The notes under the pieces were generated by a model. That model saw nothing but the letters and a program-made list of their open reading frames with translations. It searched no databases and was not told the DNA's origin. From assembly GCA_037349105.1 (NCBI GenBank), contig JAYJMM010000112.1, forward strand, positions 4,982,501 to 5,046,500: DNA of 64,000 nucleotides, read 5' to 3'. Below, piece after piece: positions 15 to 63,900 of this stretch (positions are counted from its first letter, which is position 1; each line of letters begins with the position of its first letter). This DNA comes from Limnomonas spitsbergensis (lineage: Eukaryota; Chlorophyta; Chlorophyceae; Chlamydomonadales). The position numbers and the translations under genes are program-made.

Positions 15-3000
15 CAATCTGCTATCGTGCCGTAGGCGTCAGCATCTCCAGTGAACTCCTGCATCTCCCGCGAGATGTCCAGTACCCGCTCCAGGTGCTT
101 GATAGCGGTACGGAACTGCCCCTGAATCCGAGCGGACGCGGCTAGGCCACGGTTAGCGCGGCGCTCTTGCACCTGTACAACCGTTTTTTGGTAGTTTGTA
201 GAGTTAATGGAAAGAGCAGCAACGGTAAGTCAGTAAGTTCCGCTTCCTTGTTGATTCTGAGCTGAAGCAGCTAGGCCGTGGTCAGCACGGCACTCTTGCG
301 CCTGTGCAGCAGTTTGTGGGTAGTTTGAAGAGTTTGGGGAGAAGGCAGTGCTGGTAAGTTACGTTTCATTGTCGAATCCGAGCTGATGCAGCTAGGCGCC
401 TAGGCCACGGTAAACACGACGCTCTTGAACCTACGCACAGACACGGTCAGTTTAGCGGCCATTTTATTTTTCTGTTACTTTACCGTATCAAAACGGCCCC
501 CAAGGCAGCCGATAAAGATGGCTGTCAGCCGAGGGGTGGGATGTACATTCCCCCCCCTGGCTGTTATTCATTTCCGAGAAGTCTCCGAAGCGTACAATAA
601 AAGGCTGACCGGCATCTTGCAGCCCGTCAGCCCCCAACTACCCGTTGGCTGCCAAGCAAGAACGACCATGTCTGCCCACACCCACCCTTAACAGTGCTTA
701 ATTTAGTGCGCACCAGATCACCTTTGGAGGGCCGCCAGGAGGCCACCACTGGGCTAATTGGAACCAAACCTTGACCGGCCCACGACCGGTGGTCCAAGCA
801 GCAGGCACCTTGCTGCGCCAGCCCGGCAAGGCCATGGACCGTGACGTAGCTGATTTGTAGCTGAAGCGTGTTAACACTGCCACCCTACCAGCTCCCAGTC
901 ATCTTGATTAGGATCATGATCATCATCACCACCATCACCATCATGATAATCTCAGCAGAGGTGAGAAGTCGCAAGAATGGCCCACTCAAACCGCAGGCAT
1001 TTATTTCATGGTTTAATTAGGCCCATAAACAGGTAAAGCAGTTTGAGAAATATTTGTAAGATGCTGTACAGCATATAGATATCAGATATATGGCAAGTGT
1101 TCCGGTATTTGGATTATTCCAAGTAGATATAGACGAGTTATAGCATTGATACAGGCAGCCAATTGGGGTATGGCAACGAATCACAGACTTATTCAAGCCA
1201 TAAAGCAAACACTATTGACTTACAAAAGCCAGGTACACCCTTCTATACGATAGAGGGGTATAGCGTATGGACTTAAGGGGACCCCATTTCCTTCGACAGC
1301 CTTTAGGAGTTCAATCGATATTATCCCAGCCTTATCAAACATGACATATTGTGATTTCCCCCCCACACACACACTCCTCCCCACACCTACCCTGCCTTCC
1401 AGCGCTGTCAGAAGCATCAGTGTGACCTCCCTCCCCCCCCACACTCCCCCCCACACCTACCCTGCCTTCCAGCGCTGTCAGAAGCATCAGTGTGACCTCC
1501 CTCCCCCCCCACACTCCTCCCCTCACCTACCCTGCCTTCCAGCGCTGTCAGAAGCATCAGTGTGACCTCCCTCCCCCCCCACACTCCTCCCCACACCTAC
1601 CCTGCCTTCCAGCGCTGTCAGAAGTATCAGTGTGACCTCCCTCCCCCCCCACACTCCTCCCCACACCTACCCTGCCTTCCAGCGCTGTCAGAAGCATCAG
1701 TGTGACCTCCCTCCCCCCCCACACTCCTCCCCACACCTACCCTGCCTTCCAGCGCTGTCAGAAGCATCAGTGTGACCTCCCTCCCCCCCACACTCCTCCC
1801 CACACTTACCCTGTCCACCAGCACTTTTGACAGCATCAGCGCCTTCTCAAACCGGAGCATGGACCCAGATCCATTCTTCTCCTTGAGTAGCCTCTTGCCT
1901 GCCCGCAACGCATCCCTGCACACAACCACCAGCAGGGTTAATGAGGGTTTCAGCATGAGGGCATGCTGAAACAAATCCAGACGCCTGTCTGCCCGCAAGG
2001 CATCCCTGCACACAACCACCAGCAGAAAACCTAAGGGTTTATCAGTTGATCAAACTTGACCCCTGCTTGCCCGCATTGCATCCCTGCGCACAATCACCAA
2101 CAAGGTTAATGAGGGCAGACTGAGACAAAGTAAGGGTTGAGTTGTTCTACCAAAACCCTTGCCCGCCCGCAACGCATCCCTGCGCACAACCACCAGCAGG
2201 TCTAATGAGGGCAGACTGACAAAACCCAAGGATTCAGGTTTTCTTCCTAAAACCCAAGGGTCCAGGTTTTCTTCCTGAACCCTTGCCTGCCCACAACACA
2301 TCCCTGCACGCAACCACCAGCAGGTCTAAAGAGGGCAGACTGGAAATCTCAACCCTGCCCATGGGAAGCAAATCCCTGCCCTTAGCAACCAGTGGGCAAG
2401 GAGCTGGGTAACAAACAGCAGACAAGAGGCAGGGACGGAGCGGAACGGGATTAAAGTTTCATCATTTAAAACACATTTCATTGAGGGAAAACCCTACCCG
2501 AAACCACCATCATCCCTAAACAGGCAGAAACGACCGGCCGCTTCCCGACGCACAGGGCTCGTTTCCAGGCACATACCAGAGGTGCATAGTGATATTCGGA
2601 CACACTCAGGCAGCAATGCACACAGACACACTCAGCAGCGACACAAGCACACACACTCAGGCTGCGCACCTGCAGGCCACTTGGTCCTGACTCCTGACAC
2701 ACACAGGCTGCACACCACCACACACATATTGCAGTCAGTGCGACAACACAAAATCACTTTCACTGTTTTTTATTTTTATTTATTATTTACGCGAACACTT
2801 AAGTCTTCCCCAGAATATTTTTTCATTTAAATAATAACTTGCATGCCACTGGGTCCTATCTCATATCCTCCTCCTCCATCGAAGCACAAAAGAAAAGCAC
2901 ACACACACACACACACTCACACACACACACACACAAGGCCTGCGCACCACCACACACACTACCGCGGTCAGCGCGCTGAATCAACTGACGAGGACGCTCA

Positions 3001-6000
3001 ACTCAAGTGGCATGCTAATGGGTCCTATATCACATCCTCCTCCTCCATCGAAACGCAAAAGCAGCACACACACACTCGGGCAGCGATATGAACGCACACA
3101 GGAACGTGGTCAGCGCACCAACACACTACCGCTGCAGCCGCTCACCTGCATGCCACTTGATCCTGTCCCATGTCCTCCTCCTCCATAGAGAACAGTGTGG
3201 CCTTGCTGGCATCCACGGGGGCAACTGGGTCCGCCACAGCGGCGTTGGCGCCATTGCTCGACGAGGTCTCCAGCACAAGACCGCTACCCCCGCCTGCTGG
3301 TGGGGCGTACGTCAGGCCTGCAGGTGCCGTGAGACAGGGTGGAGGGTTTTGAGTGGAGGGTTCATAGTGGAGGACGGGCAGGAGGCCAGGGAAAACGTCA
3401 CCCCCGCTGCTAGTGCGGCTCATTGGCAGGAAAAGTGGGTCAGGGTTGGTGAGTGTGAGGGTTTAGGGTTAGAGGCAGGAAGCAGGGGAAACCCTAAACC
3501 CTTACCAACAGGTGGGGCATAAGACAGGTCTCCACATTTACGGGGAAAGTGGGTCAGGGTTGGTGAGAGTTAAGCAAGGACTAAGGAGGGGTGCGGGACG
3601 CAGGGGCAAACCTTACACAAGCCAGTAGGTGGGGCCTATGCTTGGGTGGTAAAATTGTGCATGGGGTCGCAGAGGTAGTTTGGGAAGGGAATGGGTGTGT
3701 GGTGTGTGTGTGCGGGGTGGGGGAGGTGGCATGATGCTGATTAAGGGTCCAGGGTTCAGGCTTCAGGGCATAACCTGAGTCCTGAAAAAAACCACTTTCC
3801 CCTCCCAAGCAAATATCCTCCATCGTTTTTCTGACTTTGCTGGCTTGATCAAGGGCCCCGGGGTCAGGGTTCCAAGGGGGGGTTTCCCCTGTCAAGAGTT
3901 CTCCCCCCCCGGCTTAGATGGTCCCCTCCCCTGGCTTGCTGCCGCAGTTGAATCTTGATCTTGCGCAGCTGCTATGACTGGCAAAACCAAACTTCTGCGC
4001 TCACCTGGTGCGTAGATCGTGCCCGCCCTGGCTTGCTGCCGCAGCTGGATGTTGATCTTGCGCAGCTGCTCGTTCAGCTTCTCCAGCTCCTCCTTACGCT
4101 GTCGCGCAACCAGCCCGCCCACCAGGGCACCGATGATTGCCAGAAGCTCGGTGATGCCCACGACGTCGATTCCGTAGGGGGTGCCGCACAGCTTGCCTTC
4201 CTGGGAGGGTGGTGATTGTTTTTAGTGTTTGCCACACAGCTTGGCTTCCTGGGAGAGTGGTGCCACACAGCTGCCTGGGAGGGGGGTGGGCAGTGATTGT
4301 TTCTAGTGTTTGCCATGATTAATGGTTCAGGACCGTAATCCCCGCCCCCCTCCTGTAGTGCGCTGCAGACGCGAAACTCTATTGGCGAAACTCGGAAATT
4401 TGGCATGTGTTCCTAGGGATTTTTTTCTCCAGCACTGAGCGACTGCGCTTGGCTCCAAAACCATAATAATTGTTCGATACCGGTACCGCGTTTCAGTACG
4501 AGTCCCGAGTGCTCAGTACTGAGTAACAGTTACACTGGTAGTGGGGAGGATGCAATGTAAATCTCAGTGCTGCGCAACCAACTCGCGCAGGAAAGCACCG
4601 ATGATGGCCAGCAGCTCAGGGATGCCCACGACATTGACTCAGGAGGGAGTGTCATACAGCTAGGCGTGGGAGATACAATGAGGTGGTGCTGATTTCAGTC
4701 ATATTTCCAGTGCTGTTTCAGTCCCATTTCAGCCCTATCTCTAGTGCTGATTCCCTTCCCATTTTCAGTGTAGTTTCCAGTCCCATTTTCAGTTCAGTTT
4801 CAGTCCCATTTCAGTCCAATTTCCAATGATGCTTTCAGTCCCATTTTCAGTCAAATTTCAATGCTGATTGCTGTCCTATTTTCAGTGCTGTTTAAGTCAT
4901 GTTTTCAAACCTACTTTCCGTCCCATTTCCAGTGCTATTTTCAGTCTTGATTTATGACCTCTTTCCAGTGCAGTTCAGCTACACGTCAGCTCCATTTCTG
5001 GTTTAACAGGGCCTACGACTGGGTATCCTCAGTTAGCATGCTCTGATGCTTGGGCTGCTGGCCGTGGGCTGGGCGAGGACTTATTCCATGGGACTAGGGG
5101 TGGCCGCCCAGCAGCTATGGTGTGGTGTGTACGTCAAAACTTCTGGCGGGCGCAGGCAGGTGGAACAGGGTGGCTTTCTTTATTTTATTTTGTATTTTAT
5201 TTGTTTATCTGGCGCACATGATTCGTTTTGGGGGGGCAAGGCAGCCAGAGCTGCCGCTAGTTTAACCTCTTATCGCTTAGAGCGGCGATTGTAAAAAAAC
5301 CATCGGTGGACAGACATAAGGGCTCTGTATGAATGTGGTGCTGCAACCCACCACTGGCCTAATATAGTGTTTGCTTTAAATTCCCTCAAAGCATGCATTT
5401 TTGAAGGTGAGATGAGCATTGCAATCATACCGGTACTTCAAATTGCACATATTTTGAGTTTTCATATCGGAAATCTGGTCTTGGTCCATGCTTTACCCCA
5501 TGGGAAGGGCATCGCAAGAAACCATTCATCGTATCCAAGGGAAACAGCAGTCAAAATTTACAGTGCATCATGCAGCCCTTGACTTTGCGATCGGGGGTGG
5601 GGGCCAAGCTTCACAGGCCCGAACTTCCTAGAGGCAACGCTGATACGGTGTATCTCATGCCGTTGTGATTCGTGAGTATGCACTCTGGCTCATGCCATGC
5701 AGCTCATGACCTTGTGACTTGAGAGCATGCATGGATGGCACATGCCATGCAGCCCATGACCTTGTGAACTTGAGAGCATGCATGGCTGGCTCATGCCATG
5801 CAGCTCATGACCTTGGGACTTGAGAGCTTACATGGATGGCTCATGCCATGCAGCTCATGACGTTGTGACTTGAGAGCTTGCATGGATGGCTCATGCCATG
5901 CAGCTCATGACGTTGTGACTTGAGAGCTTGCATGGATGGCTCATGCCATGCAGCTCATGACCTTGTGACTTAAGAGCTTGCATGGATGGCTCATGCCATG

Positions 6001-9000
6001 CAGCTCATGACGTTGTGACTTGAGAGTATGCATGGATGGCTCATGCCATGCAGCCCACGACCTTGCCAAGTGAGGGCATGTACGGCTGGCGTGTACCATA
6101 CTACCATGCAGCCCATGACATTGTAACTTGAGAGTATGCATGAATGGCTCATGCCATGCTGCCCATGACCTTACGACTTGAGAGCATGCATGGATGGCTC
6201 ATGCCATGCAGCCCATGACGTTGTGACTTGAGAGCTTGCATGGATGGCTCATGCCATGCAGCTCACGACCTGGTGACTTCAGAGCTTGCATGGATGGCTC
6301 ATGCCATGCAGCCCATGACCTTGTGACTTCAGAGCTTGCATGGATGGCTCCTGCCATGCAGCTCACGACCTGGTGACTTCAGAGCTTGCATGGATGGCTC
6401 ATGCCATGCAGCCCATGACCTTGTGACTTGAGAGCATGCATGGATGGCTCATGCCATGCAGCTCATGACCTGGTGACTTGAGAGCATGCAGGGCTGGCTC
6501 ATGCCATGCAGCCCATGACCTTGTGACTTGAGAGCATGCATGGCTGGCTCATGCCATGCAGCCCATGACCTTGTGACTTGAGAGCTTGCATGGATGGCTC
6601 ATGCCATGCAGCCCATGACGTTGTGACTTGAGAGCTTGCATGGATGGCTCATGCCATGCAGCTCATGACCTTGTGACTTGAGAGCTTGCATGGATGGCTC
6701 CTGCCATGCAGCTCACGACCTGGTGACTTCAGAGCTTGCATGGATGGCTCATGCCATGCAGCCCATGACCTTGTGACTTGAGAGCATGCATGGATGGCTC
6801 ATGCCATGCAGCTCATGACCTGGTGACTTGAGAGCATGCAGGGCTGGCTCATGCCATGCAGCCCATGACCTTGTGACTTGAGAGCATGCATGGCTGGCTC
6901 ATGCCATGCAGCCCATGACCTGGTGACTTGAGAGCTTGCATGGATGGCTCATGCCATGCAGCCCATGACGTTGTGACTTGAGAGCTTGCATGGATGGCTC
7001 ATGCCATGCAGCTCATGACCTTGTGACTTGAGAGCATGCATGGCTGGCTCATGCCATGCAGCCCAAGACCATGCCAAATGAGGGCATGTATGGCTGGCGT
7101 GTACCATGCTACCATGCAGCCCATGACATTGTAACTTGAGAGTATGCATGGCTTGCATATGCCATGCAGCCCATGACCTTCCGACTTGAGAGCATGCATG
7201 GATGGCTCATGCCATGCAGCTCATGACCTTACGACTTGAGAGCATGCATGGCTGCCTAATGCCCTGCAGCCCACGAAATTGCAACTTGAGAGCAAGCATG
7301 GCTGGCGTGTGCCATGCAGCCCATGTCATTTGACTTGAGAGTATGCATGGCTTGCGAATGCCATGCAGCCCATGATATTGCAACTTGAGAGCAAGCATGG
7401 TTGGCTTATTCCATGCAGCCCATGACGTTGGGCACATGCATGGCTGCCTCCGCGTGCATCCCCGAAGCCTCATAGGTATCTTCATTAAGGAAATATGCAC
7501 AGGCAGGCGCGGCGAAGGAGCAGGCACAGCAGCTTATACCCTTCGCCCCGCAGCCCATAGGTGTGATTCGAAAGCGTTTTGAACACACGTTTTTCAAGGT
7601 CCTTTAAAAATCACTTTTCGGAGGAGTGTGTGTTGGCCACACTTATCAAGGCGTGCCGTCAGGCTCCACACCTGGGCTCCACACATTCCGCTGCGGGCGA
7701 GAGGCGTGTGATTACATACACCAACAATCCCTGGCCAAGCTGCCTGCAGCAGGGTCTGTAATAGCACGTGCCAGCGCGGCATTCACCATTTCAACAGGCC
7801 CTGCTACTGACCTGCCACAACGCGTGCCAGCAAGACACCTTCTATATCGGCAGGCCTCGCTGCCAGCAGGAGGGCCTGCCAACAGATGACAAAGTGACAT
7901 GTACTGTGGCAGGCCATACTGAAGACACTCCTTAGCAGGTGCCAACGATTGACGCATTGGCAGGCCCTGCTGCCAGAAGGCGGGCCTGCCAAAGCAAATA
8001 CCAATGTGGCAGGCACTGCTGCCGGACGGGTAAGGCATTGCTGTTGGCACTCTACCTCCTCTCCTTTTGAGCTGGTGTGGGCATGACAGGGGGTCATCAC
8101 GCCATGGGCATGCCGGCAGATCATCACACTATGGGCATGCCAGCAGGTCCGCACAATATGGGCATGCCAGCAGGCCATCATGGAATGGGCATGCCGGCAG
8201 ATCATCACGCTATGGGCATGCCGGCGGGTCATCTCGCCATGGGCATGCCGGTAGGTCATTACAAAATGGGCATGCCGGCAGATCGTCACGCCATGGGCAT
8301 GCCGGCAGATCATCACGCTATGGGTATTCTGACAGGTCATCATTCTATGGGTATGCCAACAGGCCATCCCATTGGTATGTGCCGTTAACCCCATATGAGA
8401 CAATACCTAATCAGTTTGACAAAAAGCCTGTTGTGTCCAAAATAACCAAGCATGCCTTTTATTATCCTGACTTACTTTTGCTATTACAGGAGCACACCGG
8501 TATGTATCTTTTAATCAAATTTCATCGCAATCGCCTCCTGATCTGCGGCCGAGGGCAGGGCCCTTGTGCAGCATGCCCTGTTGCATGCGCCACCGGCCTT
8601 CCGCCACATTCAGGTTTGGTGCCCATCAGCCCCAGTGGCGGCCACCCTGTGTAAGCTATATTATTGCACACTATTGCGCACCAATATCAGCTAAAATCAT
8701 CTGGGAGCTAAATCATCTGGGTTGCATGCAGCCATGCACCCAAGCCCACCTACCCAAAGGCTGGGTATCGAGACCCACCGGGCCACCAGATCCTTTTTTC
8801 AAAACAGTCCCAGTTTCACGGAACAGGGCACATGCGAAGTGCACAAATTCGAAAGCACCAGCCTTTCCCGCAAACGAACCAATCGGGCGTATCTTCAGAT
8901 ACGCGTTTCAAACATACCACTGGCGCGCAGTCACATCCACTGCTGCCCTCGTGCTTTGACGCTCACCTGCGTTTGGCGAATTTCGCGTTCCTCATCCTCT

Positions 9001-9554: not shown

Positions 9555-10599
9555 GCTGTATGTCAACGGGAAGGCGAGGGGCGATCGAGGGGGTGGGGAA
9601 TGTGATCAGACGCGTAGATAGATAATCGAAACTCCGAATCTTTGTAGGCGCTGTTGTGTGCGAATATGTAATATAATATATGTTTGGTGCGAGGGAAAGT
9701 GCTGAACAGGATTGATGGGGCTAAATAGATACAAATTCTTATAGGGCACCGGTGTCGGACAAAAAACAAGCGGCATGGCGGAAAGTGTGAACCTTCTTAC
9801 GCGTGCGCGAAGCGACGGCTGCGCGTGTTGGAGGCATGTCTTGAGTCCTTTGACCTCATTCATCCATAAATCTGGAAGGCAACTCATACCCACGTTGCGC
9901 ATGCTCGGTTTCAGCTTCAGAGCTCTTTCCCCCATTCTTTCACGAGAATGAGATACCTGCAGACCCCTGTAAAGTCCTAGCAAAAGAAAAGACTCCCTCC
10001 TGTAGGTACCTCATTCGCGGGTACCTCCTCCTGCAGGTAACGCATTCACCTAGGCCAGTGTCTCCCTGCAAATGAGGTACCTGCATGAGGGGGTCTCCAC
10101 TCGGAGGGGGTACCAGCATGAGTTCCACGCGAATGTGATACCTGCGGCTCCCCTCCTGCCAGGCGGAGGCGCGCATGGATAAGCGCGGTAATAGCAGTAG
10201 CAGCAGGGGGGTCACTCCTGCCTCATGGTTAAGGCGCAGAGTAACGGGCTCATGCAGGTGCCAAACGGTCCTTAAAACACACTTCTGAATCCATGCTACA
10301 TTGTCTTGATTCTTTCATTAAACTTTCGCATGGCTTGGGACAACTCTGGCTGTCAGGGCCTTATTCCTCAAGCCAGCATATGCTGCTAGTGACCATCACA
10401 TACCAGTGGCTATGAAGGTCAATAACGGGGCCCTGTGCTAAGAAAGATCGGCCACGTCAATATTGCAGTAGTTATGAAGGTGAGACCGTATGGCCTTCTC
10501 AAAATTTCGAGATATCTTCCTCCACTGAGGAACAAATTCGGCTCCATACCCGTACAAACGTTTATCATGGTGTTTACTCTGCTCCATCTGGGACACAAC

Positions 10600-10775
10600 G
10601 GTTTCAGAGCGCACCAACCACCTTAGACTTGTCACTGCTGGGATGGGGTGAACGTGGAGCAAACCTTGGCCGCCCTGCGGCTGGTGGCCCAAGCACCTGG
10701 CCAAGCTGCACCAAGTCACCACGGCCATCGTCCATAATGTAGCTGAGTTGTGGCTGTAGAACCCTGGAACACAGA
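10600..10775 (+). repeat. Family B dispersed repeat
   Basis: GCAAACCTTGGCCGCCCTGC, GGCTGGTGGCCCAAGCACC and the terminal ATGTAGCTGAGTTGTGGCTG match the family in the same orientation as the 698 copy. Confidence 0.62.
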
Positions 10776-11034
10776 TGCATGCTTGTTTGTCCCCATGGAA
10801 CATTGCAACACCGATTCTGAACAAAAGTAAGGCAGCGATAGCGTGTCCACATCCAGACTGCCTGCGTAGGAGCTGATACATCACAAGTTCTCGACACGCT
10901 TGGCATTAAAACACGCGGACATCGTCAAGCACAGTCATGAAGCACATGGCCAAGTACAGCCACCGGCAGCAAAAATAATCTCATACGGTACTGGCATCAT
11001 TATATCAGTAAAATCAAGGTGATTGTGCATGTGT

Positions 11035-11902: not shown

Positions 11903-14900
11903 TCATTCGTCCTCATCGAAATTCTCGTCTTCGCTATCGTTCACATGCTCAAGCCCAACAGCTGCTAGTCCGTCAGTCGTGGGCCCTGGCATGCTGCTCA
12001 TCATGGTCATGTCGGTCTGCTGGGTCAGGTTTGCAGTGCCTGCCTTGGCCTGCAACAGAAGATATACCATGCATGAGTCAGGGGTTTTGTATGCAGCAAC
12101 ACAGGAATTGGCCTGCAACAGCAAGATATGCCATGCATGAGTCAGGGATTTTGCATGCAACAACGCAGGAATTTGCCTGCAACAGCAAGGGACACCAAGC
12201 ATGAGTCAGGGTTTTTGCATGTAACAACACAGGAATTGACCTGCAACAGCAAGAGACGCCATGCATGAGTCAGGGTTTTGCATGCTGCAACACAGGGTTT
12301 TGCATGCAAGAGCAAGGGACACCATGCAACAGTCCTTGGGAGATTTAGGGGGGGGGTCAAGTGCCTGCTACGTGCTGCCCGCGTTGCATGCAAGAACACC
12401 ATGCATGAGTCAGGGTTTTGCATGCAGCAACACGGGGTTTTGCATGGGATAGCAAAAGCCGCTATGCAACAGTCATTGGGAGATTTGGGGGTGGGGTCAG
12501 TGCCTGCTTTCTTCCGCAGCAACAACTTACAAAGGGGCAGATTGGCAGAAAAAGAGCACGGAATAACCCATTCGGAGGCCATGCAAGCATGCAACAAAGG
12601 ACTCACTGCACTAGTCATTGGGCAGCGCCCTCCTTGGCCAGAAGCATGGGACAGTGGAAAATGTCCCATACCTCAGCGTCAGCCAGCTTCTTACCCCCCC
12701 CTCAATTTCTGCCCATTGCTGTGGCAGCATCACACCCCTCCCTCTGTCTCAGCCAGCTCCTAGGCCAGCTGATCACCCCGCAGCTTTTGGTTGTGGAGCG
12801 CATTGCAATTCTCACCCCCCTTGATTCACGAGGGGACACCATGTCCCGTCATCCCACACCTTGATATCTGTCCAACAGCCCAACCCGAGCCCACATCAAG
12901 AGGCATCTACATTCCCCACCTCAATCTCAGCCAGCTCCTTGGCCAGCTGCTCTTCTCGTAGCTTTTGGTTCTGAAGCGCGATGCGGTCCTCCTCCTCTTT
13001 CAGCTTCAAGTTCCGCTCCTCCTCCTCCTTCTTCAGCCGATCCTTCTCCAACAGCTTCTTCCTCTCCTCCTGCACAGGCAGACAGATAGCGACTCTCGGA
13101 ACAAACGAACTTGATAAAAAGCAGCAAATCATGCATAGCGTACCTCAAACGGCGGATGGGCAATGCCTGAGAAAACAATGCGCCACCATACGTGTAAACG
13201 TTTCTTATCTTCCTGGGCAAGCAGCAATGTCCAGGACAAGATCTTCTTGGATCAGATCCTGCTAGATCTTCTCGGATCAGATATTGCTAGATCCTCTCAA
13301 ATCAGATCTTGCTAGATCCTCTCAAATCAGATCTTGCTAGATCCTCTCAAATCAGATCTTGCTAGATCCTCTCAAATCAGATCTTCTCCACCTGCCCGCT
13401 TACCATCTCTGCCTCCTTCTTCAGCTCCTCCTCCTGCATGCATCAAGACGGGCAAGAGGTCAGGAGGGGGGTACAGGTTCCTGGTGAGGGTTCAGGAGCT
13501 CGTCCTCCTATGTACATCAAGGCAGGCCCGAGATCAGGAAGGGAATAGGGCATACAGAAATAAAGGCAGGCCAGACATCAGACTGTGGGGCCAAATCAGG
13601 AGAAGGGATAGGGTATGCAATAATAAAGGCAGGCCAGGCATCAGGCTGTGGGCCAGAGATCAGGAGAAGGACGGATTGAAGGCAGGCCAAGGGACAAGCT
13701 GTGGGGCAGAGCCAAGGCAGGCAACGGATCAGGCAGTGGGTACCTTCAATCACAACAACCTTATCGAATTTCTGATCCGGTTTATCTCGAGCAATTCCTC
13801 TGGAAATGGAACACCTAGCCTTGGCTGACAGATTCTCGGTGCCTCTCCATCCATGCCTCACCCGATGTTGCTTCTGCTCTGCTATCGACTGGAAGCTCTT
13901 CCACACGTCATCCCCGCCCTCAGGCTGGGCATCCGATGGTCCTACTTCTTGCTGGTCTGCTGTCAAGGAGTCCCAGTTCGCAGAGTTAATGTTCACATCC
14001 TGCAGGCACGCAAGGGCACAGGGGCGCATGGGCAAGGGGTGCAGGGGCACATGGGCAAGGGGCGCATGGGCAAGGGCACAGGGGTGCATGAGCAAGGGAA
14101 GGAAGGGACAGAAGTGCACATGGGAAGTTCAGCGCAAGGGCATGCGCGCATGGGTTCAGAATTAATGCTCACACTCTGCTGGGGCACACGGGTACAATTT
14201 TGCATAAATATACGTGCAGCTCATGGGCTTGGGAGTAAATAATTGAATGGACATGGAGGCACATGGCCGCAAGGGCGGAGTGGCGCATGGGCATGAGAGT
14301 GTATGCGCAAAGGGGCGCATGGGCACGGGTGCCAATGCTTGTATGTGCACATGGGCAGGTACGCGCAAGCGCTTGGGCGCATGGGCCAGTGCCTTAGCAT
14401 GGTCTCGTGTATGGGTACATGGGTCGCTGCATGGCAGCATGGGCCCATGGGTGCATGGGCTGTTGCGTGGGCTCAGGTAAATGTCAAGGTGGTGGCACTG
14501 AATATTGCATATGAATGTGGTTCGGAATGTGGTTCTGCCAAAGTCCTTTATCAGGGGGGGGTAGATGCTACCCCGGGATCCTCGTCAGCGGCCAATCCCC
14601 TGGTCCCACCTTTCGAGCCGCAGCCTTGTCCTTAACAAACACCGACTGCTCCTTGGGATTAGTGGCCGACTCGTCCACCACGTTCGGCCGATCTCTGACA
14701 AACGCAGTCCCAGCTGCAAAGGGTCAAGGAATCAGGATTTAGCTCCATAGGACACGTCCACTAAGTGATGCCAATTTCTAACGAACACACTCCCGGTTGC
14801 AGTCCAAATGATGCAAGCAATGAAACAAGTTGCTGGTCAGTTTAGGAACCATCGTATTTACAAGCATCATCCACATTGAACGTAATCATGAATCTCAAAA

Positions 14901-37778: not shown

Positions 37779-37823
37779 AAAGCCTTTGCATGAAGCGTCG
37801 TCGCATCATTTGCCGATGAGTGT

Positions 37824-43900: not shown

Positions 43901-46900
43901 GCCCCTTCTTGTTGATGTCGGGACGCAGCCCTTGTGCCCACCAAGCCTTGCCCCGCCCCGCCCTCACCCACATTCTAGTTGATGTGTTGGCGCAGCTCTT
44001 GTATCCACCCTGCCTTGCCCCGCCCCGCCCCCAGCCTCATCCCCCGCCCCGCCTTGCCCCGCCCCCCGCCCCCCGCCCCCAGCCTCACGCACCTTCTTAT
44101 TGATGTCGGGCCGCAGGTGGTGGATCCAACGCTCCCGACATTGCTTGCTGCTCCTACGGGCATCTGACGCGGTGCAGTACCGTCCGTTCCAATCCCTGGC
44201 AACCCAGCACCACTTGCCCTCGCCGTACATCTGAACCAGGCTGCGCAGCAGAGGGGTGGTTTGGGGTGTTCAAAAATAAGAATATGATCATGCATGGTCT
44301 AAGACTTTGGGACTTACATCTTGGGATCCGACCATGCAGAATCTTATGGTTGCTTATGATTTTGCTTTAGGCTGTTTAGCGCAGTAGGGACGTCGATGGT
44401 TTGGGCTGACGTAGCGTCCATTTCAGTCCCTGTCCACCCAGCACCGCTCGTCCCCCACGGACATTTAAATCATGGTGTAAGGGATAGGGGTTATAAAGGC
44501 TTCTGGGTTCCGGGTTAGGGGGTCAGGGATCAGAATTAAGGGTTCTAGATTCAGGGTTTAGGGTTCATGATAAAGGATCCTCGGTTCAGAGTTAGGGGTT
44601 TAGGGTTCAATCAAGGGTTCTGGATTCAGGGCTCAGGGTTCAGCTCTTGGCTTGCGTAGCATTGTAGGTAGGCACTCTAGGCAGCGGCTACCTAATTCTT
44701 TTAACGTGCCAAGTACTCGCTCTCCTCAGCGGTCTCTTGCGTAGCATTGTAGGTAGGCACTCTAGGCAGCGGCTACCTAATTCTTTTAACGTGCCAAGTA
44801 CTCGCTCTCCTCAGCGGTCTCTTGCGTAGCATTGTAGGTAGGCCTCTAGGCAGCGGCTACGTAATTCTTTTACCTTGCCAAGTACTCGCTCTCCTCAGCG
44901 GTCCAGGGTCTCTTGCAGGGCGTCTCCTCCTCGTCCTCCCCCGCATCGTCCTCCGCAATGCCTTCGTGGCCGTCGTGGCTGTCCAGCGAGCCGTTTGGGT
45001 GGAAGACAAGCTTGCGGTGGCCTGGACACACGCAACAACGGGAAGCAGCATGTGGTACGGTACATGAGTTCCGGTAAATGATTGGTAAATCATGTTTATA
45101 TCTTTGAAGGGCTGTCATGCCTGTGAAGCGAGCTGTATGGGTGATAAACAAGCTTGGGATGGCCTAAACACACACAATGGGAAGCAGCATATGCTACTAT
45201 ATATATATTTCCTCCTCGTCGCCTCTCCTCCCTGCCCCCTATACCCTCAGCCCTCATCTTTCCCTTTTCTACGATGCCCTTCCTCCCTGCCCCCCACCCC
45301 CCTCAGCCCTACCTCTACGACACCCCTCCTCCATGACTCCCCTCAGCCCTCACCCATCCCTTAGCTCTACGACACCCCTCCTCCCTGCCCCCACCCTCAG
45401 CACTCACCCATCCCTTAGCTCTACGACACCCCTCCTCCCTGCCCCCACCCTCAGCACTCACCCATCCCTTAGCTCTGCGACACCCCGCCTCCCTGCCCCC
45501 ACCCTCAGCCCTCACCCATCCCTTAGCTCTGCGACACCCCTCCTCCCTGCCCCCACCCTCAGCACTCACCCATCCCTTAGCTCTACGACACCCCTCCTCC
45601 CTGCCCCCACCCTCAGCCCTCACCCATCCCTTAGCTCTGCGACACCCCTCCTCCCTGCCCCCACCCTCAGCACTCACCCATCCCTTAGCTCTGCGACACC
45701 CCTCCTCCCTGCCCCCACCCTCAGCCCTCACCCATCCCTTAGCTCTGCGACACCCCTCCTCCCTGCCCCCACCCTCAGCCCTCACCCATCCCTTAGCTCT
45801 ACGACACCCCTCCTCCCTGCCCCCACCCTCAGCCCTCACCCATCCCTTAGCTCTACGACACCCCGCCTCCATGACTCCCCTCAGCCCTCACCCATCCCTT
45901 AGCTCTACGACACCCCGCCTCCCTGCCCCCACCCTCAGCCCTCACCCATCCCTTAGCTCTACGACACCCCTCCTCCCTGCCCCCACCCTCAGCACTCACC
46001 CATCTCTAGGCTGTACGACACCCCTCCTCCCTGTCCCCCCCTCAGACCTCACCTTTCCCTTTCATGCACTTGGACCCCGTGGTTGCCATGCGGGCCCCGT
46101 GCCTTGCCATCGGTGGGCTGGCAAAACTTATGTGCTGTCCCATCCCACTACCGCCGCCGCTACCACCGCCATGCTGATGAGCTTGCATCATAAATGATGA
46201 CCAGTCGGGGGCGCCGCCACCGCCGCCGCCCATGAAGGCGCCCCCGCCGTTACCCATCGCCGCAACGGCGGCGGCGGCGGCCATGTGGTCTCCGCCCGGC
46301 TGCGGCTGCTGCAGGAGCATCGAAAGGAACAGAGGGTTCTGCGCCAGCAGAGGGTTCCCCGCCGCGGCCGCCATCGCCGCGGCTGCTGCCATGTGCTGGA
46401 ACGCGGCTCCGCCGTCCGCGCCGCCTCCCGCTCCTCCCACGCCGGCCGCCGCATTCATCATCATCATCTGGTGCGCTTGCGGCGCCAGCATGGACATGAG
46501 AGCCGCCTGGCTCATCAGCCCATCGTCCCCGGGGTTTGAGAACATTGGAACACCAAAGTCCCCGACCGGCGACTTCAACGGCGCGCGTGCAAACTGCTGC
46601 TGCTGCTGCCGCTGCTCCTCCGCCCCGCCACGCTCTCGCATCTGCACGTCTTCATCCTCCCGGCCTCCATCCCGTCTCTGCCTTCGGGCCCCAGGATGCT
46701 CCCCCCTGTTGCCCTCTTTACAGTCCAGGCCGCCCGAAAGTCCAGCGCTCCCGCTGTTGCTGCCCGCCGCTCGTCCGCCATGCGCATGGGAGGCATCCCT
46801 CGCTTCACGGCCCTCCCTCTCCACGCCACTGCCGGCGGCGAGGCCTTCGGAATCGGTCCGTATGCGACCCTGCGAACGCGGCGGCTCGATCGGCTTCGAG

Positions 46901-53015: not shown

Positions 53016-53600
53016 CCACAAAAATGTTGACCGGTCTTCGTTCCTTAAACGAACATTTATGTCTGTGCTGTCCACTCTGATGGCGGTGGGCCATAGCTGA
53101 CTCATCACAACCTCCTCCTGCCTTGGCGTGGATGGATATGTCACAAAAATGCCTTGATACCGGTACATGTTTCCCCTACATGCAGTTTCCGGCTTTCCGC
53201 ACCGCTTTCGCTGAAAGTAACGTAGAGACTAGACAAGCCTCAGGGCTACAGCAAAATTGTTGATGTGAAGTCCCTCGCCCTCGCCTTCGCATCTTGCAAC
53301 GTTCATTAATACCACCCCTCAATTGCCTCAATTGCCTGTGTCCTCCTAGCCTCTCGATGTCTCCACGTTTTTGTGTGAACCTCAAAACCCTCAAAACGCC
53401 TGTCGGAATGCCCCCGGAAATGGGAGGGAATTTACGTCGTCTGCCCTTAACAGCCCCATTCCCACCTGTCTCGTATCGACTGCACACATATCCCCCCCGA
53501 CCATTCCAAATCACGAGACCAATGGCCAGCAGTCACACGTGAGGGGCTGACACACATCACAGCCTCACTCTTCGCCTCAGCGCGGTCGCGCCACCAGCAA

Positions 53601-56600
53601 ATGCCTTCATACCGCTGTCGAGGTGCTGCTTCCCTCCTCACATCATCCGATGCTGCCAGTTCCTCTACTCCCAGTCGTGCTGACGGCTGCGATGTGCACA
53701 GCCTGCAATTTCAGCTGCATGCCGGTTCCGGCAGGGCGAGAAGAAGAGCGGGGGCTGCCGCGTTCGGGTCCCTTACTCTCAGCAACTTGCCTCAGCAGCA
53801 GCTTGCGGTCAAGACATTAATGTCGTCTGCTCCTCATGCGACACCGCCCGCATCACCCGACGTGTTGCATCTACCGTTCGGAGTCAAGCAAGGTGAGCAG
53901 GGCTTTCATCACAACATTAAAGAAGTTCGGACCTCATGTCGAACCTCATATCGGACTCAGATCAATTTCTCATGAACTAAGGCGTAAGGTGCAGCTGAGT
54001 TCGGGGATTATGTGCGAATAGCTTCATACGCATGGGAGTGCCTCCGCATGGAGGGTTGCATGGATTAGTATGAACAATCATACCCCCAGCCTGGACACTC
54101 TTACAAACCAAGGTGTATGGTGTAGCTCAGTTTGTAGATTATTGACGTATAGCCTCAGCCGCTTAGAAGTGCTCCCGCAAAGAGGGTTGCATGGAACGAC
54201 ATGGGCAATCGCGGGGGCGATATCGAAAGTCATGAAGTAACCCCATGCACATGATGACATGAAGCATCTCGTGCTGCAGATGCTGCATGGAGCAGCATGG
54301 CTAATCTCAGTGGTGATATCAATTGCCAAGAATAAGGCATGGACTCAACATCAACATATGTAGGAAGTGTGTCCTGCTTTACATGAAGTACAGGCTGCAA
54401 TGCAAGACAGTCAGGCAGACTGTCATGTACTACACAACATACAGGAAGGGTCGACTGTACTTCAAGACAGACAGGTAGTCAGAACTGCACTAGAAACAGA
54501 CAGGAAGTATGGACTGCACAACAATACAGGCAGGAAGTATGGACTGTACTACAATACAGACAGGAAGTATGGGTGCTACTACAAGATAGGCAGGCAGGAA
54601 GTATGGACTGTACTACAATACAGACAGGACCTATGGATTGTATTTCCAGAGATGCAGGAAGTGTGGAGTGTGGACTGTACTACAGACAGGCAGACAGCCT
54701 GTCACGCAGTACATGACGAACAGGTAGTTTTTATAGACACTTCATTCTGCCCTTTACCAGAGTTCATTGACTGAGCCCATGCGACTTGTTTCCCCAATTT
54801 ATGGATCACTGGGTTGAGACTATAATCTGTCCTGTACCAGCGCCAGTGAATCGGGACCTGATGGCTAAGTCAGTGAGGGGCTCGGTTGTTAGCCTGCTGC
54901 GCTCAGAGCATGCCAGGGGCCGAGGGGTGGCTTCTGCTACTTGTGTTGCTGTTGTGCCACCGCATGACCTACATGCCCTGCCAAGTCAAAAAGTGGAGAC
55001 CCTGCTTTATTTTCGTCAAGCTAAACGACTGTTCCTGACCCAGGCCTCACGTCTTTAATATAAAAGACAATTGTTGGCTCTGCCTCCTCTTTGTTAACTT
55101 GCAAGAAAATGCTTTGTCTTTGCGAACATATAAGATGGTTTCCTACCCTTCTTAATCTTCTTGAACACATAAGACAATGCCCTACCCACCTTTTCCTTCT
55201 TGAGCCAATGAGTCCATGCCTGACTCTCCTTCATCTTCTTGAATAAATAAGACAATTTTCGACCCACCTTCATCTTCTTGACCAAAGAACACAATGCCGT
55301 ACCCTTATTTTTCTGCTTGAACTAAGAACATAATGCCCTACCGTTCTCTTCCCTCTTGAACGGATAAGACAATGCCCGCCCCTCCCTTTTCTTCTTGGAC
55401 AAATTCAAACAATGCCCTCCACACCCTTTGTGCCCAGGGAAGACAACACTTCAATACATTTGGGACGGCAACGTTGTGAAGGCTCTAGACGAGGACATGC
55501 TGCTTCTAGGAGCGGACAGCCCAGGTGTGGATCTAGGATCTAGGATCTATAACGTGCTTCCACTGGGAGGATCTAAGATGTATAACTTAGGAAACCTGAA
55601 GTCCCTTAACCCTGGTGAGGATCTAGGGTCCAGCATCATCCCGTCACCAAGATCTCCCTCCTCCTCCCTAGTAATTCTTGTAGGGATTTGGCCTTGCTCT
55701 GTTGGTTACCCCACTCCTCAAAACGAGCGCTGCAGGCGCAAAGAATTTCCAAATTCTCAGTGTCACCCGCTCGCTTTCGGGATCTTTCCGGTAACGAGCT
55801 ACTGCGGTGGACTCTAGGACCTAAAAGTGTTTGATGCCTTGTTTCGGTACAATTCGTACCCAGTACCGGCTACAAGAATCAGTGCTCCTCCCCCCCTCCC
55901 CCCGGGTGGGGTTCTTTAAGTGGGGTACGTCAAGCGTGTCGTTTCCTGTTGTTTGGATCAGATGCACAAGGTCACCCTGGTGAAGATCTAGGGTTCAGCA
56001 TCATCCCTTGACCTAGATTTCCCTCCTCCTCCTCTCCCTCCCCCTTGTTCCTTGAAGTGGGCACCGTCAAGCGCGTCGTGTCCCGTTGGTTGGATCAGAT
56101 GCACAAGGCATTCCTGCCCAGCAGCAAGGACGTCACGTCGGACTACTGGGAGTGGTTGAGGTGGAGGCTGTCACAGGTGAGGCGGGTGTAACAAAGCAAC
56201 ACTCGTGAGTGGCCTTTTGTTTCCAAGCCACCAGGCATATTATGATTAGTTTTGTTTAGTACCGGTGTTGTCTAGTGTTGTTTAGTACCGGTGTTGTCTA
56301 GTGTTGTTTAGTACCGGTGTTGTCTAGTGTTGTTTAGTACCGGTGTTGTGTAGTGTTGTTTAGTACCGGTGTTGTCTAGTGTTGTTTAGTACCGGTGTTG
56401 TGTTGTGTTGTTTAGTACCGGTGTTGTGTAGTGTTGTTTAGTACCGGTGTTGTCTAGTGTTGTTTAGTGTTGTCTAGTGTTGTTTAGTACCGGTGTTGTG
56501 TAGTGTTGTTTAGTACCGGTGTTGTCTAGTGTTGTCTAGTGTTGTTTAGTACCGGTGTTGTCTAGTGTTGTTTAGTACCGGTGTTGTCTAGTGTTGTTTA

Positions 56601-59600
56601 GTACCGGTGTTGTCTAGTGTTGTTTAGTACCGGTGTTGTCTAGTGTTGTCTAGTGTTGTTTAGTACCGGTGTTGTTTAGTGTTGTTTAGTACCGGTGTTG
56701 TCTAGTGTTGTTTAGTGTTGTCTAGTGTTGTTTAGTACCGGTGTTGTCTAGTGTTGTTTAGTACCGGTGTTGTGTAGTGTTGTTTAGTACCGGTGTTGTC
56801 TAGTGTTGTTTAGTACCGGTGTTGTCTAGTGTTGTCTAGTGTTGTTTAGTACCGGTGTTGTCTAGTGTTAGTTGTTTAGTACCGGTGTTGTGTAGTGTTG
56901 TTTAGTACCGGTGTTGTCTAGTGTTGTTTAGTACCGGTGTTGTCTAGTGTTGTCTAGTGTTGTTTAGTACCGGTGTTGTCTAGTGTTGTTTAGTACCGGT
57001 GTTGTCTAGTGTTGTCTAGTGTTGTTTAGTACCGGTGTTGTCTAGTGTTGTTTAGTACCGGTGTTGTGTAGTGTTGTTTAGTACCGGTGTTGTCTAGTGT
57101 TGTTTAGTACCGGTGTTGTCTAGTGTTGTTTAGTACCGGTGTTGTCTAGTGTTGTTTGGTACCGGTGTTGTGTAGTGTTGTTTAGTGTTGTAACAGGGGA
57201 ATACTGAGTATTCATCTCCCACCAGCAAAGAGTTCACCTCAGGCTACTGGCAGTAGCTCAAGTGGGGGTTCTCACATTTGAGAAGGCAGAAGATGTAATG
57301 CTGAAGGGAATCCAGGCAGGAGACTCAGACAGGAGATGTATTGCTGAAGGAAATCGAGGCAGGAGATTCAGGCGGGAGATTCAGGCAGCTGGTGAGAAGG
57401 CTTCCTACCCAGTGGAAGGTGTTACCTCAGCCAATTGGGACTCTGGGAGTGGGTCATGTGTGGGTTTCACATGTGAGTAGGCAGAAGGTGCAAGACTCAG
57501 TAGTAGAACATGCAGCAGGTGAGGAGACCCTCCTGCCCAGTGGCAAGGACATCGCCTTTGCCTAGGAGTGGCTCAAATTGATGATTTTACACGTGAGAAA
57601 GCTCGGGGATTGGAGATGCGGGAGGAATGTAGGTTCAAATGCTCTAGGGTAAAAGATGCAACACGTGCTATACTGAAATAATCTGATCTGGTACTCTACT
57701 TCCAAACCTCACAAACAACCATTTCCCCGCGCCCCTCGTTCTCTGCTTCCCACTCTCCACCCCCAAGCCTCACAAACAACCTTAACCCCGCTCCCCGCTC
57801 CAGCGCCTCCTGGACTCTGAGGAGCAGAACCGTGAGAATAGGCAATCGAGATTTGATGGGCGTCCTTGTGAGAATGAATTGAGCCACGCAATAACATCTA
57901 TCCCGCTCCACGCTCCCCACTCCCAGATCCCAGCCCTCTATGGCATCACAAAAACCTCCCGCCCCACTCCCCGCCCCACTCCCCGCCCCACTCCCCGCCC
58001 CACTCCCCGCCCCGCATCCCTGCCACCCATCCTCACAAACTCCATCCTGCTCCCCGCTCCCCGCTCCTCAACCTCACAAACAAATCCCTCGCCCACTCCT
58101 CGCTCCCTGCTCCCCGCTCCCCAGCCTCAAAATCAATCCCTCCCCCACTCCCCACTCCCCGCTGCAGCGCTTCTTCAGCCCTACATCCCCGCCACCCAGC
58201 CTCACAAACTCCCTCCTCCTTCCCGCTCCCCGCTCCCCAGCCTCACAAACAAACCCCTCCCCCCCACTCCCCACTCCCCGCTGCAGCGCTTCTTCAGCTC
58301 CACAATGCAGAACCTCTCGACGCAGTCCATGCTCCTGGCCCTGGGGCTGGGAGCGAAAAAGACCATCGCAGCATCAGCTGTCATCAATTGGCTGCTCAAG
58401 GACGGTGTTGGGCGCATTGCACGCATGACGGTTGCGACCAACCTCTGCCAGTCGTTTGACTCGGACCTCAAGGTCAGTCGGGTTCTATACTTTCATGGCT
58501 CAAGGTTGTCATAGGCACGACGGCCGCGACAAACCTGTGTCAGGTTTTCAACGCGGGGGTCTAGCTCGTTTAGGGATAAGGGTCAAGGGTTTAGGGTTTT
58601 CAACGCAGATGTCTGGCTCGTTTAGGGTTTAGGACTCAGTGCGAAGGGTTCTTGTGGCAAATATCACCTCTGGCCCGCCCCATGCACGGATGTAACCAAT
58701 AGCCTGCTTCGAAAGGGCCTGGCTGTTCAGTCCCGGAGGCAACTATAACTTGAAGGTCGGTCAAGGTCAGGGGGGCGGTGGCAGCATAATCCCCGCCTCT
58801 ATCCAATAGCCCGTTTTGGAAGGGCCATGCTGTACAAACCGGAATCACCTAGGAAGTCCATGGTCAGTTCGCAGTTTGTTTTGTTGCAGCACCTGCACAT
58901 CTGTTTTTGTTACCTTGTTTAAGTTCACGCAACCACCCACAGCCTTTTTGCAAAAGACCAGGCAGAGCGAACCAGGGGGAATCAAGGCACAAGAACCTAA
59001 AACACGCAACACGGGGGCAAGAATCAATCTGTACAAAAGGCTTTGGTTGGCCGGACCATGCAAACGCTGTGCTGCACAATTGAAAAACACTTTTTGGGGT
59101 CGGAAGCGTCAGACATCCATTCATGTGCCTGCGTGAGGATGTGTGTGATCCGCGAAGGCTCTTGCATGGCGAGGTAGCATGTATGGGGATGTTGGGTGCA
59201 GGCATGAGATGAATTTATTTGTTTTTTGCGCACCCTTAACCCTAAGCCCTTCACCCTTACCTCCTTAAGGGGTATATGTGCCGGCTGGTTATCACTGGGT
59301 TTATCGGGACCACAGCAATCGGGTCTAAAGCATGACCAATATGTGCTACTCATAAAGCAACGAGCCAGGTCACCAACAGCAAGCGACTGGGCACGCTGCG
59401 ACGGGGCCCCTCAGCAGGCGGCTGGGATGTGTTGCTGGGATGTGTAGCTGGATTGCACTGAACATATTTAGATATTATATTGTGACACAACTTATTTTGG
59501 CAGATGCCGTGGAGGCCCTATGCGTACCACACAGCACACACTGAAGCACAAAGGCCTCAATCTTGACAGACACGAAAACAGCATACAAGCATGCACAAAT

Positions 59601-62600
59601 GCAATCACTTACACACTCACACACACACACACACTCACACACACTCACTCACTCAAACACATCACACTCACGCACGCACTTTCCTGTGCGCAGCGCATTC
59701 GTTTTTTCACGTCCGTGATCTTTGAGGCGACCATTGGCTGCGAGTTCATCACGCCCTTCTTCCCCCAGTACTTCCTCGCACTTGCATCAATTGCGAATGC
59801 TGGAAAGGCCATCGCACTGTCAGCGTTTGTGTCAACTGCGGTGAGTTTTATTGTTTGGGTTGAGGACATTTTCGCCTATTGGGGTGAGGGTTCAGGATTT
59901 CGTTTGAAGAGCACTGGTGTGCACTGATGTGAGGGTGAAGGGTGTGGAGCATTTGTGTGCCCTAATGTGAGGGTGTAGGGTTTAGAGTGAATGGCATTTG
60001 TGTGCACTAATGGGAGGGTTTGGGGTGTGGAGTGAAGAGCGTTTGTGTGCACTGATGGGAGGGTATAAGGTGTTGGGCATTTGTGTGCACTGATAGGAGG
60101 GTTTAAGGTGTTGGGCATCTTGTGCACTGTCCGTGCCTTGTCACACCCTGACCTGCTGCCCCCATCGTCAATCACTGCAGCCTGCGATACCTAGGGGAGC
60201 CTGCACCGCTATCCTCCTCCTTGTGCATTGGCATCAGCGCTGTGCAATTGCGTTGTCATTCGGAAATCGCGTTAGGCCCCTTAATGGTTAGGTAGCTGAA
60301 TTTGCCTTGAAATTGCGGTGACTGAACCTCAGCTATGCAATTCAGCCACTGTCAGGCCCATAAATGGCTCAGCACTGATTATCATACCCTGACCCTCTGC
60401 CCCTTTGTTAATTGCCGCAGCCTGCGTTCCAGCGGTCGCTGTGTGCAGCGGGCAACCTGGCAGACCTGACAGCCAAGAACCAGGCACAGGTATGAGTCCG
60501 AGGCGGTTTCTAGGTGCGGTTAGCCTAGACAATCAGTAAAAATGGGGTTTGTACGTCTTTTCTGGCTGCCGTTTTTTTCTTGTCCGATTTCGCCCCTGGT
60601 CTTTTCGCTTCGCAAGAGAAAAATCCGCCCTGGCTTTATGAATCTCTCCCTCATGATCTCTGATTGCGGCATGACAGGGGGGGGAGGATGAGGATGTTTT
60701 AAGCTAGGCCATTAATTAAGGCCATTTAGGCCATTTATTAGGCCATTTAGGCCATTTAGGCCATTAATTTCCGCTAGGCCATTCAGTTGAGCACCTGACC
60801 GCACATCCCAATTTTGCCCCCTTCCCCCCCCACCCTCTCCTCTCTGATCCCCAGCACATGGTCATCGACACGGCTTTACGAATGGCCGCATGATCCCTGA
60901 TCGCGGTTTGGCCAAATAGGGGGAGGGAGGTTGGGATGTTAGCAATTTTAAGATATAGGCCATTCAGTTGAGCACTCCCCATACGTCCCTATTTGTCCCC
61001 TGGCCACACATCCTTATTTGTCCCCTTCCCCTCCACCCTCTCCTCTCTGTTCCCCAGCACATGGTCATCGACATGGTTGCGCTTGGGGTGTCGGCCGGAG
61101 CCATGTTTGCTGTACGGAATAGGTAAGCCCGTGGGGGGTCAAGCCTGACCATAAAAAAGGCAGGCTTTGTAAATAGTTTGATGATCCCGGCCACAAACCT
61201 GAAACTTCATCCCCAATCCCCATCACCCAAACTCGATACTTGAGTCCCAAAACATTGACCCATCCCTACACCCTGCATTCTCACCTATCCACCAGTGCAG
61301 ATACATCCTGACCCTGGCTAAAACAGTTTCATAACCCCCGGCCCTGAACACCAATCTCACACATCATTGAGCGTAGACGCACACTGCGGCGGCAGTGGCG
61401 GCGGCTGTGGCGGCAGCTGCTGCTGCGGCTGCTGCCGTGGGTTCTTAGGTTATCCTGGAGACCTGGGACCTCAACAGTAACTCCTGTTGGTTTCATAACC
61501 CCCAATCCTTAACCCCGATGTCACACATCATTGAGCGTGGACGCACGCTGCGTCGTGGCGGCAGCGGCGGCTGCTGCGGGTTGTTAGCAGGTTCTGAGGT
61601 TACCCTGGAGACCTGGGACCTCTACATGAACTCCTTTTAGTCTGCCCTCAGCGAGCATGGGTGCAATCTGCTGCTGCCCCTGACATGAGGGTTTTTTTAA
61701 ACCCTAAACTATATTGACTGCCTCGGAGAGCACGAGCGGATCCCGTTGCCACCTTGGGCCTTCGGATTTACCGCCGTATGGGTTTAGGGGTTCAGGGTTC
61801 AGGGACCACCCTGGACTTTGGATCTACCACCTTCGGGGTTTAGGGTTTAGGGGCCGCCCTGGCCTTCGGATTTACCGCCTTCAAACCTGAACCTGAACCC
61901 CAAACCCTAAACCCTCTCAACTCAGCGAGCAGGGTTTCGCATTCTGCTTCCGCTGCTGGCTTCAGGATTAAATGAACCTTGACTCCCAAACCCTGATCTC
62001 TGTACCTGGCGAGCAACCCTTGCACACCCTATAACCCTGTTCTCCAACCTTAGCGAACGAGGGCGCATTCTGCTTCCGCTGCTGGCCTTCCCGATCCTGG
62101 CTGCGTTTGACCTGTTTGCCATCTACCATGAGCTCAAGTCGGTGGAGCTCAAGATGCTCAACAGGGAGCGGGCGGAAATGGTTACGGAGCGGTGGCTGCG
62201 GACCGGCCAGGCACCCAGCGCAGCTGAGGTAGGAATAGGGATACTGCAGGGAAGGAGAAATTGGGAAAGGGGAGAGGGGGAGAAGGGAGATGGGACAAGG
62301 AGGGGTGGAAAGGGGGGGGGAATGGGGATTAGGGAGAGGAAGAACGGGGGAGTAGGAAGGGACAAGGAGGGGTGGAAAGGGGGTGGGGAATGGGGATTAG
62401 GGAGAGGAAGAACGGGGGAGCAGGAAGGGGCAAGGAGGGGTGGAAAGGGGGGGGTTAGAATGGGGATTCGGGAGAGGAAGAATGGGGAGCAGGAAGGGAG
62501 GAGTGGAGGATGCTGACCGGCAAAGCGCTGAGCTCGGCAGACGCGCGGGAAACAAGGGGCTGGAAGCAGGGGCGAGGATGAAAGGGGGGTGCGGGGAAGG

Positions 62601-63594: not shown

Positions 63595-63900
63595 GTGGGT
63601 GGGGCGGGCGGGCGGACAGGTCTAGTGGGAGGGGCGGGCAGGCGGGCGGGTCGGGTGGGGCAGGCGGGTCGGGTGGGTGGGGCGGGCGGGCAGGCGGGTC
63701 AGGTTGGGTGGGTGAGGTGGGCGGGCGGGCGGGTCGGGTGAGTGGGGTGGGCAGGCGGTCGGGTGGGTGGGGCAGGCGGGCGGGCGGGCGGGCCAGGTGG
63801 GTGGGGCGGGCGGGTCGGGTGGGTGGGCAGGTGGGGTGGGTGGGGCAGGCGGGCGGGCGGGTCAGGTTGGGTGGGGGGGGGGGGCGGGTGGGGTGGGTGG
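63595..63900. repeat. GGGCGGGCGGGTCGGGTGG G-rich repeat
   Basis: About 305 bases of GGGTGGGGCGGGCGGGC-type units with runs of G, immediately downstream of the exon 9 donor GTGGGTGGG, whose sequence the units resemble. Quadruplex formation is possible. Confidence 0.9.

Follow-up and report, generated by a model that had tools for sequence, protein, structure and literature searches.

Side-specific copies of exon edges in introns of the green alga Limnomonas spitsbergensis and their probable origin in an intron-wide background of tandem duplication

Introduction

A 64,000-nucleotide stretch of the genome of the chlorophycean alga Limnomonas spitsbergensis (GenBank assembly GCA_037349105.1, contig JAYJMM010000112.1; G000:C112:4982501-5046500 in our numbering; hereafter, the window) contains introns that hold copies of the boundaries of their own exons. 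This raises the question of whether such copies, here termed echoes, are the product of a process directed at exon edges or of something more general in the introns of this alga. A sequence-only reading of the window had held that most introns carry echoes, that these arise by tandem duplication across the exon-intron junction, and that they could drive the growth of introns throughout a genome. We find that the echoes are genuine, keep to one side of the junction, and occur genome-wide, yet are rarer than that reading states. Its interpretation in terms of tandem duplication is right; a special exon-edge system is unsupported, because the intron interior behaves alike.

Exon sets and search procedure

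The genome that was searched comprises 260,226,709 bases in 124 contigs. Pfam matches in the window identify a bromodomain gene (with an additional BET match under the Pfam cut-off), a zf-UBP gene, a Myb DNA-binding domain, and a UVB_sens_prot (RUS) gene; tandem-repeat detection with TRF gives 102 rows, and an Rfam scan of the window returned no match. Splice-site models were trained on homology-matched exons from elsewhere in the genome, a codon model was added, and the exons of the window were then called, which defined 48 exon edges. Two of these (at 61058 and 62054) were added by hand with their echoes already seen, and six predicted exons judged unreliable by eye (starts 892, 29734, 43154, 44919, 46238, and 63555) were left out of the edge counts. 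Outside the window, exons were located independently of echoes through Pfam matches to Cpn60_TCP1, tRNA-synt_1, and kinesin; after exclusion of junctions with a splice-site score of <5, these 108 homology-located exons gave 165 usable junctions (77 acceptors and 88 donors). The exon sample thus draws on three Pfam families and includes several paralog pairs, and probes in intron interiors reuse the same introns, so that the observations are not independent.

Exon-edge copies in the window

In a search that allows several copies per edge, the adjoining intron contains one copy or more for 18 of the 48 window edges, for a total of 35 copies, and nine edges have two or more; without the two hand-added edges, the count is 16 of 46. 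A stricter test, in which the copy in the adjoining intron must beat 60 controls from other loci, finds copies on the expected side of 15 of 48 edges and on the wrong side of 0 of 46 (13 of 46 against 0 of 46 without the hand-added edges; p about 1e-4), and a probe spanning the junction finds a copy at 12 of 48 edges. The arrangement originally described, with copies of the acceptor and exon start upstream of the exon and copies of the exon end and donor downstream, recurs in several genes on both strands and can be read directly in the sequence of the RUS and zf-UBP genes. The earlier figure of at least 20 exon edges comes close to the 18 recovered by the multi-copy search; the statement that most introns carry echoes is too strong, about a third of the tested window edges doing so.

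On the minus strand, exon 1810-1898, called by the gene finder, has its end and donor echoed as a 70-bp minisatellite (see below) and its acceptor edge echoed at 2252-2301, with a second, short copy at 2158-2177; these acceptor copies come from the multi-copy search and lie under the level of the strict test. All other minus-strand echoes were recovered by both the strict test and the multi-copy search. They comprise donor-edge echoes of exon 3146-3317 at 2837-2882, 2661-2696, and 3002-3051; acceptor-edge echoes of exon 4005-4200 at 4223-4262 and 4624-4672, together with a donor-edge copy of the same exon at 3912-3950; donor-edge echoes of exon 12920-13069 at 12729-12786 and 12664-12692; an acceptor-edge echo of exon 14610-14713 at 14752-14801; and an acceptor-edge echo, at 44430-44477, of the exon predicted by the gene finder at 44093-44240, the translation of which reads like a MYB repeat.

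On the plus strand, the zf-UBP exon at 32583-32819 (Pfam, sequence reading, and both searches) is echoed on both sides. Three acceptor-edge echoes lie at 32241-32290, 32338-32377, and 32483-32543, part of which was searched in the genome and found at this locus only, and an echo of the exon end and donor lies at 32864-32911, where the GT is intact and the decoy scores the same as the real site. Exon 56058-56176 has an acceptor-edge echo at 55911-55965 (both searches), with local matches only in the genome. Exon 58287-58472 of the RUS gene (Pfam) is preceded by four acceptor-edge echoes from the multi-copy search (57791-57831, 57918-57970, 58050-58099, and 58153-58185) and followed by a donor-edge echo at 58520-58567 (sequence reading and both searches). 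The hand-added edges are the acceptor at 61058 in the RUS gene, with an echo at 60840-60885 that was recovered by both searches and is found at this locus only in the genome, and the acceptor at 62054, with two echoes at 61646-61682 and 61915-61968 (sequence reading and both searches).

Gradients from near-perfect to faint copies, which had also been described, receive weak support: at 11 of 22 edges with several copies, the nearest one matches best (6.4 expected), and it is better than the farthest copy at 13 edges and worse at 7. With so weak a signal, we set aside a reading of the gradient as an age order.

Side specificity across the genome

Outside the window, the multi-copy search finds a copy at 33 of the 165 junctions and the junction-spanning probe at 44 of 165, or 56 of 213 with the window included. 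In a first test on 60 exons, copies on the right side numbered 11 and 9, those on the wrong side 1 and 0, and those of exon middles 1 and 3; minus-strand loci were left unturned in this test, which leaves the side comparison valid. With the edges placed by the splice model, right-side copies are present at 9 of 49 acceptors and 9 of 53 donors and wrong-side copies at 0 of 49 and 0 of 53, so that, when pooled, 18 of 102 edges beat all controls on the right side and 0 of 102 on the wrong one; exon-middle probes beat all controls in 0 and 1 of 35 cases.

A profile across the 165 junctions gives the same picture by position. Outward copies are found for about 14 to 23% of the probes from -500 up to the junction, and their rate drops with depth in the exon (17, 13, 9, 7, 4, and 2%). 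Inward copies stay at 1 to 3% over the span between 40 bases ahead of the junction and 60 bases into the exon and climb to 9 to 12% deeper inside, where the probe is presumably approaching the opposite edge of the exon. At a score of at least 18, the 40 exon bases adjoining the junction have outward copies in 23 of 158 probes and inward copies in 0 of at most 158; by per-probe controls, inward copies number 2 of 160.

The copies are direct, with 426 direct and 9 inverted matches among 3,102 probes, and the chance level of copies is 10 in 6,600. Matches of exon edges to their own introns far exceed those to other introns, which is the comparison that the sequence-only reading had itself put forward as able to refute it. 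Four units tested genome-wide (260 Mb) each match their own locus only, in a search that scores the top candidates only and would overlook diverged copies. That the junction was duplicated in tandem while the real site kept the exon-proximal position is supported because the copies are direct, the four units are locus-unique, and wrong-side copies are nearly absent. This near absence also argues against dispersed local copying, since free local copying would be expected to deliver exon starts to the downstream and the upstream intron alike.

Junctions compared with intron interiors

At a score of at least 18, outward copies are found for 30 of 160 junction probes (18.8%), 297 of 1,999 interior probes (14.9%), and 14.6% of exon-edge probes (junction versus interior, p = 0.21). 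At a score of at least 24, the corresponding values are 16 of 160 (10.0%), 211 of 1,999 (10.6%), and 10.1% (p = 1.0), and at the strictest threshold, 9 of 160 junction probes stand against 150 of 1,999 interior probes (p = 0.5), the interior probes being mutually non-independent throughout. With 160 junction and 1,999 interior probes at three thresholds, we found neither a raised duplication rate at exon edges over the interior nor a detectable depletion of junction-spanning duplications; the intervals are compatible with up to about 1.7-fold enrichment at junctions or, at the strictest threshold, with a junction rate reduced to about one third. A high background of tandem duplication crosses splice sites without detectable depletion, and exon edges are not special, because the intron interior is duplicated locally as often.

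These rates bear most directly on a dedicated exon-edge process, in which junctions or exon ends would be hotspots of duplication that drive intron growth. Echoes are abundant, with several copies each for some edges (145 copies in all, at 49 of 211 edges), and tandem repeats are reportedly enriched near intron-exon junctions in Chlamydomonas reinhardtii and Volvox carteri (PMC3887541, available part), as such a process would have it; the equality of junction and interior rates at all three thresholds, within the enrichment still allowed, makes it unlikely, and the specificity for exon edges that had been claimed is thereby left unsupported.

The explanation that we hold to be probable is that junction-straddling units stem from a high rate of tandem duplication throughout the intron, with the exon-proximal site retained. 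Introns would gain short head-to-tail duplications everywhere at a high rate, with a median shift of about 130 bases (130.5 as measured). Some of the duplicated units would straddle a splice junction and give two copies of it, of which the exon-proximal one would be joined to the remaining exon and the other would come to lie in the intron. Alleles using the exon-proximal site would leave the protein unchanged and hence survive, and the intronic copy would then decay as non-coding DNA or be duplicated again into a minisatellite. The route of duplication would be slippage, unequal exchange, or end joining. Splicing would use the exon-proximal copy, which is presumably kept by selection on the protein, and selection at the same level would remove duplications within exons and of whole exons.

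The shifts of 56 echoes leave remainders of 0, 1, and 2 modulo 3 in 22, 15, and 19 cases, without a signal. Of 56 echoes, 21 are contiguous or multi-copy and 35 have an unaligned spacer of >15 bases, a point against head-to-tail duplication that may be due to decay and indels. In the exact tandem runs used to look at breakpoint microhomology, partial further copies mimic homology.

Decay of the copies and comparison of paralogs

Decay of the copies is largely unconstrained. Mismatches between echo and exon number 46 of 411, 59 of 408, and 77 of 405 at codon positions 1, 2, and 3, respectively (11.2, 14.5, and 19.0%), against 34 of 847, 15 of 850, and 200 of 842 between paralogous exons (4.0, 1.8, and 23.8%), and the two patterns differ (p = 6e-16). 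Because the echo mismatches are spread over codon positions unlike those of paralogous exons, the copies look dead and appear to evolve largely as non-coding DNA. A third-position excess persists among the echo mismatches and may come from silent changes of the real exon itself. Identity between echo and original is 0.849 on the exon side and 0.882 on the intron side (1,605 exon and 713 intron positions). The lack of a higher similarity on the exon side is contrary to expectation, since a constrained copy should slow divergence there, and it may result from alignment-end effects.

Several genes present as paralog pairs with exons 81 to 97% identical (C39/C99, C36/C119, C118/C113, and a pair on C124) are useful for dating intron change; in the two pairs that were aligned in full, the introns are alignable only in part. 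Across 16 paralogous exon pairs, several edges of which were unscorable, the edges that could be scored in each of the two paralogs include five with a copy in a single member and three with a copy in both, one of the three showing the same 108-base period in each member. Since some copies are common to both paralogs and others are present in one only, the process looks both old and continuing, the clearest copy confined to one paralog (C113) lying within a probable pseudogene.

The paralogs also inform on whether the echoes are intron-making tandem duplications, the same type of event as in other genomes. Such duplications are known elsewhere, including a junction-spanning case in potato (PMC4974935, available part), but the copies here take in the intronic portion of a splice site already in place and sit in a pre-existing intron, and no duplicated exon piece was noticed spliced as a new small exon in a non-systematic look. 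Paralogous exons, moreover, hold their position while their echoes differ, and we regard this origin as very unlikely. Assembly artefact or chance similarity, for which the frequent low-complexity DNA of the window would provide an opening, is hardly credible: the copies are mostly 5 to 35% different, unlike false duplications, and chance is excluded by the controls from other loci and from the wrong side, although near-identical arrays such as that on C113 could have a wrong copy number in the assembly. A mobile, introner-like, or other dispersed element with splice sites would fit copies that are intronic and contain such sites, but it deserves next to no credence, as all four units tested match their own locus only in a best-candidate search of 260 Mb, with none of the similar copies across many unrelated genes by which introners are recognized, matches of probes to their own introns far exceed those to the introns of other loci, and inverted copies are so few (9 of 3,102 probes).

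Minisatellite arrays

In some arrays, the repeat unit takes in an exon end and a donor. In the minus-strand array at 1370-1813 (TRF, 70 bp x 6.4, with local matches only in the genome), the units contain a degenerate copy of the end and donor of exon 1810-1898, these copies lying at 1376-1420, 1446-1490, 1516-1560, 1586-1630, 1656-1700, and 1726-1770; the others with exon end and donor in their units lie at the donor edges C113:5954985, C102:1861189, and C62:119226. The derivation of four window minisatellites from exon edges, as first proposed, holds for this 70-bp array; no exon-edge tie was found for the 85-, 54-, and 40-bp arrays when they were compared with their 300-base flanks, in a test so weak that the 70-bp array fails it too. 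Among eight arrays compared with 300-base flanks, only those with 54-bp and 15-bp units rise above the null, via degenerate continuation of the array.

The array of 40-bp units occupies 6 kb of the window (23732-29744, about 150 copies) and ends inside a predicted, unsupported plus-strand exon (start 29734) that was excluded from the edge counts. Further large minisatellites, with no exon-edge tie shown, are located at 5686-7430, 20958-21817, and 56247-57191, with 50-, 24-, and 26- to 52-bp units, respectively. On C113, a near-identical 78-bp array of exon end and donor (G000:C113:5953919-5955110; L062), with 13 copies in the 1 kb searched, lies in a tRNA-synthetase gene copy. This gene copy has in-frame stops and is a probable pseudogene, and the donor of its C118 paralog has no copy like the 78-bp array.

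Decoy splice sites

The proposal that decoy splice sites are made often is borne out by the alignable decoys, 38 of 50 of which retain both letters of AG or GT, as predicted by per-site rates (the match per site is 0.883 for these letters, in line with the two identities given above). A splice-site score of 5 or more is reached by 29 of the 38 intact decoys, and 11 of them equal or surpass the real site. For the 30 intact decoys with a known frame, use would shift the frame in 20, add a stop in 8, and leave it open in 2, so that 28 of 30 would break the frame in one of these ways.

Against a decoy that is often equally good, about 100 bases away, and nearly always protein-breaking when used, one can tentatively set an exon-proximal splicing rule, in which the first donor and the last acceptor, giving the shortest exon, would be taken. 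That such a rule is robust enough to make junction duplication near neutral is a possibility that we consider rather doubtful. If it were true, introns would grow from their ends and take up exon sequence, and arrays of splice sites would be built in housekeeping genes. If the sampled rate holds genome-wide, the alga would offer a very large natural set of junctions duplicated near the real one, and the choice between copies, the frequency of the wrong copy, and the rate of intron lengthening are measurable with the IsoSeq data of the genome paper. Those who predict genes or annotate repeats in genomes of this type should be aware that exon fragments within introns may be dead copies. What remains of interest is that duplications pass through splice sites with an undetectable penalty and thereby furnish a natural set of decoy junctions.

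Relation to known systems

Cross-junction duplication is already known from single genes, and we found no report of its pervasive occurrence. Among the matches listed in our literature search, which covered titles and the starts of abstracts with most subscription journals outside it, there is no description of pervasive exon-edge copies. They are likewise unmentioned in the available parts, on repeats and genome architecture among others, of the genome paper of the snow alga L. spitsbergensis (PMC11228838), and in those of a study on intron length in Chlamydomonas relatives (PMC8226300).

Like minisatellites found in introns generally, the arrays described here are head-to-tail with units of tens of bases; they differ in that the units of some hold an exon end and donor. 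In C. reinhardtii and V. carteri, introns are the compartment richest in tandem repeats, with enrichment reported toward intron ends (PMC3887541). The available part of that report does not state that exon sequence or splice-site copies are present in the repeat units. A close parallel in kind is the potato RdRp gene, in which, according to the available part of the report (PMC4974935), a tandem duplication across a junction created an intron, with a unit that includes the 3' part of one intron together with the 5' part of the exon that follows it. The same source describes the Rogers model and the ATP2A1 case. Common to the potato and ATP2A1 cases and to the alga is that the DNA surrounding a splice site is duplicated in tandem. 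There, however, the outcome is a new intron in a single gene, whereas here the copies lie in existing introns, the exon portion of the duplicate seems not to be spliced, and the phenomenon is seen at a fifth to a quarter of the junctions tested.
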